Positions 8,055 to 11,711 of a DNA stretch of 64,000 bases are shown in pieces. The position numbers were made by a program, and so were the translations under genes. This DNA comes from Bordetella parapertussis (GTDB taxonomy: Bacteria > Pseudomonadota > Gammaproteobacteria > Burkholderiales > Thiobacillaceae), in NCBI GenBank assembly GCA_945890495.1, contig CAMDCO010000003.1, positions 1-64,000 of the forward strand, given 5' to 3'. The stretch's first letter is position 1; every line of letters begins with the position of its first letter. Under the pieces are notes generated by a model. The model had not been told where the DNA came from. It did no database searches and worked only from the letters and a program-made list of their open reading frames with translations.

Positions 8055-8220
8055 GGGGCTTTGCCCCCTTATTGCGTGGCCCACTCCACCCCCAAGCGAG
8101 ATATTTCGCCGTCGCATCGTGGGGCTTTGTCCCCTCATTGTGTGGCCACCCCCACGACAAGACTCCCAGAGTCATCGCCAGGGGCTTTGCCCCTTCCTTG
8201 CGTGGCTCCATCCCCCCTTG
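8055..8220 (+). repeat. Three degenerate 60-66 bp units in the rfbA-rfbC gap
   Basis: Units beginning GGGGCTTTGCCCC or GGGGCTTTGTCCCC, with a TTGCGTGGC-like core and a C-rich tail, start at 8055, 8121 and 8181. Each can form a hairpin (GGGGC...GCCCC). Together they fill most of the gap, in which no gene is seen. Confidence 0.75.
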
Positions 8221-8249: not shown

Positions 8250-8870
8250 ATGCGCGTAATTGAAACCCCCATCCCCGGCGTGCTGGTGTTGGAGCCCAAG
8301 GTGTTTGGTGACGCCCGAGGTTTCTTCTTTGAGAGCTGGAACGCCCGCGTATTCCGTGAGGCGACCGGCATCGAGACGGACTTCGTGCAAGACAACCACT
8401 CGCGCTCGGCCAAGGGCGTGCTGCGCGGACTGCATTATCAGATTCAAAAGGTGCCCCCCACGCTCCCTTCGCTCGCTGCCCCCCAAGGGGGCGCAGTCGC
8501 CGCTTTGGGGCTGCCCAGCAGCGGCGGCCCGCAGGGCAAGCTGGTGCGCGTGGTGCGCGGCGCGGTGTTCGATGTGGCGGTCGATCTGCGCCGCTCTTCG
8601 CCCACCTTCGGGCGTTGGTTTGGTGCTGAATTGAACGAAGAAAACCATCGCCAGATGTGGGTGCCGCCGGGCTGTGCGCATGGCTTCGTGGTGCTGAGCG
8701 AGTTTGCCGATTTTCTGTACAAGGCGACGGATTATTACGCGCCGGAACATGAGCGCTGTATCCGCTGGAACGATCCCGCGATTGGCATCGATTGGGGTGT
8801 TGCTGAGCCGGTGCTATCCGCCAAGGACCAGCAAGGCGTGGCGTTTGCAGAAGCGGAAACGTATGCGTGA
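8250..8870 (+). CDS. rfbC: dTDP-4-dehydrorhamnose 3,5-epimerase with in-frame repeat insertion
   Basis: Third step of dTDP-L-rhamnose synthesis (cupin epimerase). Start ATG 8250 is fixed by the family N-terminus (IPGVLVLEPKVFGDARGFF). The catalytic His lies in LRGLHYQ, and PPGCAHGFVVLSE and WNDPAIGIDW are intact. Residues 68-93 are foreign: normal proteins read QK then PQGKLV, and here 26 residues encoded by a 78-bp palindromic repeat separate them. Length is 206 against about 180 in the family. The frame is kept and everything after the insert is conserved, so the gene is probably expressed, but activity is untested. Confidence 0.93.
   Translation: MRVIETPIPGVLVLEPKVFGDARGFFFESWNARVFREATGIETDFVQDNHSRSAKGVLRGLHYQIQKVPPTLPSLAAPQGGAVAALGLPSSGGPQGKLVRVVRGAVFDVAVDLRRSSPTFGRWFGAELNEENHRQMWVPPGCAHGFVVLSEFADFLYKATDYYAPEHERCIRWNDPAIGIDWGVAEPVLSAKDQQGVAFAEAETYA
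8451..8528 (+). repeat. 78-bp palindromic repeat inserted in frame in rfbC
   Basis: The insert contains GCTGCCCCCC-AA-GGGGGCGCAG and CCGCTTTGGGGCTGCCCAGC segments that can fold. Removing 78 bases restores the canonical family sequence exactly at QK|PQGK. The sequence style is like the C/G-rich dispersed repeats common in Burkholderiales and relatives. Confidence 0.9.
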
Positions 8871-9831
8871 CGCTGACACCCTCTCCCCCAACCCCTCTCC
8901 CGTCAAGGGAGAGGGGGGCCAGGCTCGGGTGACGCTCCCTCCCCCCATGCGGGGGAGGGTTGGGGAGAGGGGTATTCTTATTACCGGCGGAAACGGTCAG
9001 GTCGGCTGGGAGTTGCAGCGCACGCTGGCCGCACTGGGTGAGGTGATCGCACCGGGGCGCGAGACGCTGGATCTGTCCCGGCCCGAGACACTGCGTGCGG
9101 CGGTGTTGGCCTTGCGGCCGCGCTGGATCGTCAACGCGGCGGCGTACACGGCGGTAGATAAGGCGGAATCTGAACGCGATCTGGCCTATGTAGTGAATGC
9201 TGAGTCCCCGCGTGCGCTGGCCGAGGCGGCTCTTGAGGTCGGTGCCGCGCTGGTGCATTACTCGACGGACTATGTGTTCGATGGCAGCGGCGATTCGCCG
9301 TTTGCTGAGGATGCGCCGGTCAATCCACTCAATGTCTATGGCGCGAGCAAGGCGGCGGGTGAGGTGGCGATCCGTGCCGCACTGGACCGCCATCTGATCC
9401 TGCGCACTTCTTGGGTCTATGGCACGCGTGGCGCGAACTTTTTGCTGACCCTGCAGCGCCTGATGCGCGAGCGGCCCGAACTGAAGATTGTGGATGACCA
9501 GATCGGCGCGCCGACCTGGGCGCGGCATATCGCCGAGGTCACGGCGCTGATGATGGCGCAGATCGATTCGCCTGCCCGGGGTGCTGACCGGCCCGTGCCG
9601 TGGGGTACCTATCACCTGACCAACGCCGGCGAGACGAGCTGGTTCGGCCTTGCCGAGGCGATTCGGGAGAGGGTGGGGGCAGACACGAGGCTGCTTCCCA
9701 TTCCCTCCAGCGAATACCCCACGCCCGCGGCGCGACCGTTGAATTCACGGTTGTCGAACGACCGGCTCGCACGAGTGTTTGGCATTCGCCTGCCGGATTG
9801 GCGTGTGGGGCTCAATCAGGCCATGGGTTAA
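8863..9831 (+). CDS. rfbD: dTDP-4-dehydrorhamnose reductase with repeat-derived N-terminus
   Basis: Last step of dTDP-L-rhamnose synthesis, an NAD(P)H-dependent SDR. The core starts ILITGGNGQVGWEL and continues with STDYVFDG and the catalytic YGASK. ATG 8863 overlaps the rfbC stop and is the likely ancestral start, but about 32 repeat-encoded residues (LSPNPSPVKGEGG...) now sit between MRDAD and ILITGG. An alternative start at ATG 8947, itself inside the repeat, would give 294 residues, the normal size. Both keep the whole Rossmann motif. The start choice is uncertain. Confidence 0.92.
   Translation: MRDADTLSPNPSPVKGEGGQARVTLPPPMRGRVGERGILITGGNGQVGWELQRTLAALGEVIAPGRETLDLSRPETLRAAVLALRPRWIVNAAAYTAVDKAESERDLAYVVNAESPRALAEAALEVGAALVHYSTDYVFDGSGDSPFAEDAPVNPLNVYGASKAAGEVAIRAALDRHLILRTSWVYGTRGANFLLTLQRLMRERPELKIVDDQIGAPTWARHIAEVTALMMAQIDSPARGADRPVPWGTYHLTNAGETSWFGLAEAIRERVGADTRLLPIPSSEYPTPAARPLNSRLSNDRLARVFGIRLPDWRVGLNQAMG
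8877..8973 (+). repeat. Palindromic repeat forming the 5' end of rfbD
   Basis: It opens with ACCCTCTCCCCCAACCCC and closes with GGGTTGGGGAGAGGGGT, an inverted repeat with an inner AGGGAGAGGG copy. The same family is seen at 40372-40427 beside nirJ. Deleting it would fuse MRDAD directly to ILITGG. Confidence 0.85.
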
Positions 9832-10037: not shown

Positions 10038-11711
10038 TTACAGGTCGCCGTTCGCGGCGGCGCGCATGACCCCATCCATGCGGTCGTGAACGCTGATGGC
10101 GCCGTCCCAGAGGGCGTCGCTGATGCCGAGCCGTTCTTTGTAGCCCAAGGCCCAGGCGGGGTTCCAGTCCAGCATGGAGACCCAGATTTGTTTATCGGCG
10201 TCTTCCGTGATCGCGATGCGGCAGGGCAGGAAGATGGCCGCCTCCGGGCTGAGTTTGAGCAGTTCGCGCCCGACGGCGATATCACAGAAGCTGTAGACCT
10301 CGACGCGCGGGGCCTTTTTGTCGTCCAGGACGGCGTGAAAGTCTTTCCACATCAGGTTTTCGCTGACCAGTTTCAGATTCTGCTTGTTCGCGGAGAGCTT
10401 CATTGACTCCACCACATCGTCAAAACTGACGCCCTGTTTGGCCGGGTATTTGCGCGTGAAGTAATTGATGATGTCCGGCAGGGTCAGCTGCATGAAGCTG
10501 GTCATCATGGGCAGCATCATCTGCGCCAGCATGCGTTTCTCTTCCTGGCTGATGGTCCGGCGCATGGTGTAGGGTTTGGCGGACGGGACCGGACCACCCA
10601 TCATGGGCGGCATCATGGACATGGGGAAGGGCATACTGGGCATTCCCCCTGGCATACCGGGCATCCCTCCGGACATGCCTGGCATACCGGGCGCGGCGGG
10701 CCAAGTCTGAGGATAGGCGGGGGGGTAGGCCGGGGGATAGTAAGGATTGGCGGTTGGATAGCCGGGCACAGGGGACGCGGGTTGCTGGGCGGGTGGGGTT
10801 GGGTAGCTGGGCGGCGCATAACTAGGCGCATACCCAGGCGCATAGGACGGCGGGGCGTAGTTTGCTGCCGGAGGTGTTTGGTTGGCCGCCAGCAGGGCGG
10901 GACGATGCTCCGGATTAATAGCGGCTATGGCGGCTGAAGCGGCGGCGGCCGCCGCCGTTGCGGCATGAGCGGCGGCCGTCGCCGCATTGGCCGCTGCCGT
11001 TGCCGCCTCGGCCGCCCGTGCGGCCGCGTTGCCCGCTTCGGCGGCAGCCAACGCGGCCTTGGCCGAATTCGGAGTATCGGCGGGCCGAGGATTTATTCCT
11101 TGGCTCGAACCCGGTGCGACAGGTGCGACAGGTGCGACAGGTGCGACAGGTGCGACAGGTGTGACAGGTGTGACAGGTGTGACAGGTGTGACAGGTGTGA
11201 CAGGTGTGACGGGTGTGACGGGTGTGACGGGTGTGACGGGTGCGGGCGCAGGGCTTGTCTTGTTTGTCGTGGCCGAGGGCGCTACCGGCGAGGGTGCCGA
11301 TACGGGTGTTGTGGCGGGGGGGTGAACTGGGGGTTGAATCGCCTCCGGTAAGCGTCCTAGTGCGGGGATGGAGGCTAGTCGCATGTCAGGAACAACCCCA
11401 GAACCGGCCTCAATAGCCCCATTTTTCGACGGTTCATCTACGAGGGGGAGGGAAGCTTGAGGCGGCGCTTTGTTTTCCCCTAAGGGGACGCTGGATAGGA
11501 GCGGAGCCGCTTGGCTTGGGGTCGGCTGGGACGGCAGCGGCGAGAAGGAAACGATCTGCCATTCGACGGGCGGGTAGTAGATCACCTCGCCACCGGTCCA
11601 GCCCGGAGAGGCCGGGATGGCCATGGCATAGGCGTACGGGTAGACATACTGACCTTGCGCGGTCAGGGGTATAGACCCCAGCAAGAACAGGACAGTATGT
11701 CGTTTTAGCAC
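10038..11711 (-). CDS. Exported low-complexity protein with C-terminal DUF302 domain
   Basis: The 557-residue protein begins with a signal-like segment ([17 protein letters not shown]). A Pro/Ser-rich region follows, then a perfect tripeptide array (about nine VTP then five VAP), an Ala-rich helix-prone block, and a Pro/Tyr/Gly/Met-rich linker. The last 150 residues resemble DUF302 ([48 protein letters not shown]). DUF302 proteins are of unknown function and common in sulfur oxidisers and denitrifiers. The repetitive half probably spans the periplasm or cell wall. No neighbour gives a clear functional hint; it converges with rfbD and lies downstream of acnA on the same strand. Confidence 0.75.
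11113..11238 (-). repeat. 9-bp minisatellite (about 14 units) encoding VTP/VAP
   Basis: On the plus strand the units are GGTGCGACA x5, GGTGTGACA x5 and GGTGTGACG x4. The three blocks of identical variants show stepwise expansion. Each unit adds one tripeptide, so copy number can change without frameshift. Confidence 0.95.

Follow-up and report, generated by a model that had tools for sequence, protein, structure and literature searches.

A palindromic insertion within rmlC

The 64,000-nucleotide stretch analysed here (hereafter the window) is taken from the forward strand of contig CAMDCO010000003.1 (positions 1 to 64,000; assembly GCA_945890495.1, Bordetella parapertussis, placed in the Thiobacillaceae by GTDB) and contains an rmlC (rfbC) gene that is interrupted, in frame, by a palindromic element. 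The gene (8250..8870, forward strand) lies in an rmlBACD operon and encodes a dTDP-4-dehydrorhamnose 3,5-epimerase of 206 amino acids including the insert, based on solved RmlC structures and on a match to TIGR01221 (257 bits) that is split over two stretches. The element itself spans 78 bp, or 26 codons (8451..8528, forward strand). The reading frame continues through it as HYQIQK-VPPTLPSLAAPQGGAVAALGLPSSGG-PQGKLVRV, and the extra residues are numbers 68-93.

An in-frame insertion of this size had been suggested by the original prediction, and it is borne out by solved structures, by the proteins of relatives and by a DNA alignment with empty sites. Aligned with solved structures of RmlC, the query pairs its residues up to 67 with chain residues up to 70 and its residues from 95 onward with those from 72 onward. 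RmlC was identified in 34 of the 41 genomes searched (host genome counted), and the proteins of relatives align as two abutting pieces (query 1-66/67 and 93/94-205/206) with no residues between them. The 26 residues are also missing from the RmlC of two genomes of the same genus (79-88% identity), and aligning the DNA with the orthologues of the same genus (L055 and L056) leaves a clean 78-bp gap, identifying these as empty sites. The insert falls a few residues past the RGLHYQ strand, which we take to be near the active site. A single-sequence AlphaFold prediction of RmlC (pLDDT 31) was uninformative on loop exposure, and a search for viral RmlC homologues to include in an alignment found none.

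Anatomy of the element

The DNA of the insert was originally described as self-complementary. It is palindromic in parts, with a core hairpin (8478-8492) and an arm-loop-arm hairpin (8493-8528) directly beside it. Alignment of copies defines a left block (8451..8474, forward strand; GTGCCCCCCACGCTCCCTTCGCTC, consensus RRACRGCCCCCACGCT...), followed by parts that have no assigned strand. The core hairpin (GCCCCCCAAGGGGGC; 8478..8492) is common to the copies; it reads GCCCCCC-AA-GGGGGC in rmlC and GCCCCCC-GA-GGGGGC across copies. It is followed by a variable inner arm, X (GCAGTCGCCGCT; 8493..8504), a constant loop (TTGGGGCTGCCCAGC, consensus TTGGGRCGGCCCGGC; 8505..8519) and an outer arm, R (AGCGGCGGC; 8520..8528), which is complementary to X at 8 of 9 positions and which, judged by the empty sites, is inserted DNA rather than host sequence at rmlC. 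Copies in general share this layout of left block, core hairpin, inner arm of ~12 nt, constant loop and outer arm. They are GC-rich and ~60-80 bp long, and no terminal inverted repeats were seen in the alignment of copies. The consensus contains a stop codon in just one of its six frames, and copies are predicted to encode peptide inserts of the PPTLPSLAAPQGG type.

The RNA folding energy of the insert is ordinary for its composition (z -0.65 relative to shuffled sequences) and thus proves nothing by itself; the element exceeds chance because it is repeated in the genome. A scan of five loci against Rfam returned no family for the element; the single match, elsewhere in L099, is probably due to chance.

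In-frame copies in unrelated genes

The window contains a single copy of the element core. The host genome is a draft assembly of 40 contigs (81% complete) and the genome searches scored only some candidates, so the copy counts given here are lower bounds. A 22-nt core pattern matched the host genome nine times, compared with no matches for the reversed control, and 10 copies were found at E <= 1e-4. The further copies that the original prediction proposed to look for therefore exist, and most of them are in frame within genes. Seven separate intragenic sites, all in frame, were found in rmlC, truA, a cusA-like gene, cobQ (two sites) and two unnamed frames that had no NCBIfam match at the cut-off used. 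By our own reading of their sequences, one of these frames probably encodes a peptide-binding protein and the other an NAD-epimerase-like protein; the NAD-epimerase-like frame carries two tandem copies with the element reversed. One more copy extends murF at its C-terminus, and another lies just upstream of an efflux gene.

Across all genomes, genes carrying copies were identified by NCBIfam, and copies were judged to be coding from codon preference and family models. The named carriers are TruA, the CusA/CzcA family, CobQ, MurF, PrmA, NirJ, HemW, CobD, Mpl, GlnD, MurE, MurC, Cho/DnaQ, MurD, an ABC ATPase, AcnA, ValS, biotin carboxylase, PurH, HflX, MurB, PyrC, BtuR and UbiH. A relative from the same genus has one copy inside prmA and another in the N-terminus of an amidohydrolase. 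Another genus of the family (g4) carries copies in mpl, murC (three in tandem), murD, murE, glnD (two), cobD (three in tandem), acnA, an ABC ATPase gene and a cho/dnaQ fusion. Additional sites occur in purH, hflX, murB, pyrC, btuR and ubiH, and genomes beyond the family have them in valS and in a gene for biotin carboxylase. The MurC insert consists of three tandem 24-residue units placed between residues that solved MurC structures show as neighbours. The in-frame tandem arrays have periods of 72 bp (murC, three copies; L090), 81 bp (cobD, three copies; L086) and 84 bp (a frame in G315, at least five copies; L312). A shorter relative of the element was also seen at L091, L093, L097 and L103, forming SRSPGRPKNDLAPSGGGSG-like in-frame inserts in hemW, the cho/dnaQ fusion and other g4 genes.

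In a codon-preference test, 42 of 84 copy groups were open and in frame over both flanks. Confident exceptions are copies at gene starts or ends, mostly with a stop inside the element, or murF sites, where the downstream test window enters the next gene (reading by eye across one of these, L264, shows it to be clearly in frame). No clear case of an intragenic frameshifting copy was found among the 84 groups, the exceptions having been re-read in part. The in-frame copies occur in both orientations and use five of the six element frames (8, 14, 6, 7 and 7 copies). Given this use of frames and the single stop-containing frame of the consensus, the DNA is coding-tolerant, with no selection for any particular peptide. 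If selection removed other insertions, an excess of copies in frame would be expected.

Distribution and shared insertion sites

The element was found in 28 of 117 genomes of the host family and, with a stricter cut-off, in 20 of 300 genomes sampled from the order, in scattered families. Some of the nearest CobQ matches come from Gallionellaceae assemblies, which makes that family a possible placement for the host. It also occurs in Burkholderia, Paraburkholderia, Azoarcus and Variovorax, including on plasmids. Throughout this range (the order, and the Burkholderia, Paraburkholderia, Azoarcus and Variovorax plasmids), copies outside genes typically adjoin start codons, at TGAnATG-like junctions.

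Some insertions are shared between species. The host genome shares the efflux gene site with G073 and an N-terminal cobQ site with G025; G064 and G068 share a site in hflX, and G025 and G074 share one in cobD. Empty orthologues of the cobQ and cobD sites exist in other genomes. Sharing could reflect either vertical descent or transfer of whole genes. Within the window, nirJ (~40926) and acnA (~13302) lack insertions that relatives carry there (G033 and G007, respectively) and represent empty sites.

Covarying hairpin arms and landing sites

The 3' hairpin arms vary by site but remain complementary. Among 97 distinct copies, defined by the constant loop as anchor, 8.0 of the nine positions match between inner and outer arm, compared with 4.0 in mismatched pairs. 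When a single copy was kept for each of 55 distinct inner arms, 87% of the nine positions pair, versus 44% in shuffled pairs and 26-47% when the arms are slid, and none of 20,000 shuffles reached the observed value. All four Watson-Crick pair types occur at arm pairs 2-9. Pairing is also present in copies from Burkholderia, Azoarcus and other families; of five plasmid copies examined by eye, two need a one-base shift for the arms to pair. We found no earlier report of site-varying complementary arms in the open-licence literature.

Empty orthologues indicate that the host supplies the outer arm at acnA, cobD and cobQ, and thus that the inner arm at these sites reverse-complements the landing site. 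The outer arm is part of the insert at rmlC (empty orthologue) and apparently at mpl (family sequence only). In genome G072, two unrelated sites, in murD (L253) and ubiH (L254), carry identical inner and outer arms, so both arms can move together with the element.

Direct target duplications were identified at truA (10 bp), acnA (8 bp) and the frame for the putative peptide-binding protein (8 bp). The duplication-like match averages 6.5, compared with 4.47 (standard deviation 0.17) after shuffling, a difference inflated by some tandem-internal copies. A target duplication of 9-12 bp at every copy was considered and rejected, based on the shuffle control and the empty sites.

Origin of the element

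We propose, with a probability of about 85%, that the element is a selfish, non-autonomous palindrome, ~60-80 bp long and repeated, which spreads within betaproteobacterial genomes and is tolerated in frame. Almost every frame of the element lacks stop codons, and thus an insertion that keeps the frame yields a protein with a loop and can persist; such a loop would comprise 20-30 residues rich in Pro, Gly and Ala. The repeat is probably mobile and selfish rather than useful, and insertions out of frame have presumably been purged. Several points weigh against this proposal. No enzyme for movement was identified, and no link between the element and Y1/REP transposases was apparent in these genomes. 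Target duplications occur at some sites only, rmlC having none, so insertion may take more than one route. Mobility is deduced from comparison rather than from direct observation, the enlarged enzymes are only predicted to be translated and active, and many of the carrier genomes are draft assemblies.

As a leading mechanism, we tentatively suggest single-strand hairpin joining followed by template switching. A single strand that folds into a hairpin could be joined to replicating DNA where its outer arm has short similarity to the target, which would sometimes be duplicated; template switching by the polymerase would then keep or make the arms complementary. Published abstracts describe template switching as making the arms of inverted repeats alike (PMC7202029, PMC8604942, PMC8794818). 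A different possibility, which we regard as quite doubtful, is that the inner arm acts as a guide that pairs with the target or is rewritten from it, such that each copy would carry its landing site inverted. To our knowledge, no mobile hairpin that matches its site in this way has been described. Because the arms covary, the mechanism can be tested by sequence comparison alone.

The covariation could instead reflect selection on a hairpin in transcript RNA rather than a DNA process. The stem is kept with all four pair types, and hairpins near gene starts could influence translation or mRNA decay. We nevertheless think this unlikely, since coding copies show the same covariation in either orientation and across many unrelated genes, for which a common RNA role is implausible.

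Less probable again is a GC-rich hairpin of the repetitive extragenic palindrome (REP) kind, moved by a Y1 single-strand transposase (REP-associated tyrosine transposase, RAYT) and sometimes landing in genes. GC hairpins, tandem arrays and intergenic copies are indeed REP-like, and Y1_Tnp is encoded in many genomes of the family, with six matches in the host genome. However, Y1_Tnp is also common in genomes that lack the element, and five genomes that carry it (G004, G064, G067, G068 and G069) had no detectable Y1_Tnp, as judged from drafts with a broad family model; nor would target duplications at some sites be expected.

It is very improbable that this RmlC lineage has long possessed the 26 residues as a functional loop, despite their closeness to what we presume to be the active site, since same-genus RmlC proteins lack them and the genes of unrelated proteins contain the same DNA, read in other frames to give other peptides. 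An assembly or binning artefact is about as improbable even though the host genome is a draft, given that the element and its in-frame copies recur across many independent genomes, at differing sites, and that some of these genomes are near-complete with few contigs.

Other repeats in the window

The original prediction also placed a second insertion within rfbD. This proved to be a different repeat (CCCTCTCCC...GGGAGAGGG; 8878-8970) that covers the rmlC-rmlD junction and the rmlD N-terminus, upstream of the conserved RmlD sequence ILITGGNGQVG. It is palindromic, is found at about a dozen sites in the genome, and would lengthen the RmlD N-terminus by ~37 residues, or fewer with a later start. 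In other species, a variable CobQ loop carries in-frame inserts of similar appearance. Between rmlA and rmlC (8055-8193) lies a GGGGCTTTGCCCC repeat in three spaced copies, and a head-to-tail PVTPVTP... repeat (10987-11325) lies within an open frame (10038-11711).

Comparison with known systems

We found no paper on the element or containing its core sequence in the open-licence literature, outside of which most subscription journals fall. With regard to miniature inverted-repeat transposable elements, no terminal inverted repeats were seen and a partner insertion sequence was not sought; target-site duplications, a feature of that class, measure about 6-10 bp and are limited to a subset of sites. 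Like REP/RAYT systems as generally understood, the element has short GC hairpins and tandem arrays; REPs, however, are extragenic by definition, whereas many copies of the element are coding, and no link with Y1 transposases was apparent in the drafts with a broad family model. Quasipalindrome mutation by template switching could account for the covarying arms, but it is a process rather than an element and does not account for the spread of the core.

YPAL/RU-2 of Yersinia, as described in excerpts of PMC2229807, is similar in having internal inverted repeats, variable target duplications (3-26 bp for YPAL), targets at or near dyad symmetry and some in-frame fusions. Unlike our element it is 168 bp long and enterobacterial, and the excerpted account does not mention arm covariation.

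The closest likeness is in behaviour. Palindromic inserts that keep the reading frame have been described in Rickettsia (Rickettsia palindromic elements, RPE) and in Wolbachia; fewer cases are described among enterobacterial and neisserial elements (PMC2229807, PMC10969869, PMC3767692). Like the RPE and Wolbachia elements in these accounts, the present element sits in frame in unrelated conserved protein genes and also has intergenic copies. The idea that the genome carries a coding-tolerant repeat comparable to those of Rickettsia therefore holds for behaviour; it need not extend to identity, as the element is shorter, differently built and betaproteobacterial. By the same accounts, RPEs are about 105-150 bp long, have 12-bp terminal inverted repeats and occur in Rickettsia and Wolbachia. 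The element described here is 60-80 bp long and GC-rich, with two adjacent hairpins, site-varying arms and no terminal inverted repeat seen, and its hosts are betaproteobacteria, in a search that lay outside the Rickettsiales. It thus works like an RPE and is set apart by these descriptions in length, structure and host. Coding palindromes have hitherto been regarded chiefly as a peculiarity of the Rickettsiales, with scattered in-frame fusions elsewhere. A GC-rich betaproteobacterial family that enters dozens of conserved enzymes, in genes that are apparently intact, suggests that short selfish hairpins can sit in working proteins far outside Rickettsia, and its filled and empty pairs in close relatives offer natural tests of how proteins tolerate random loops.
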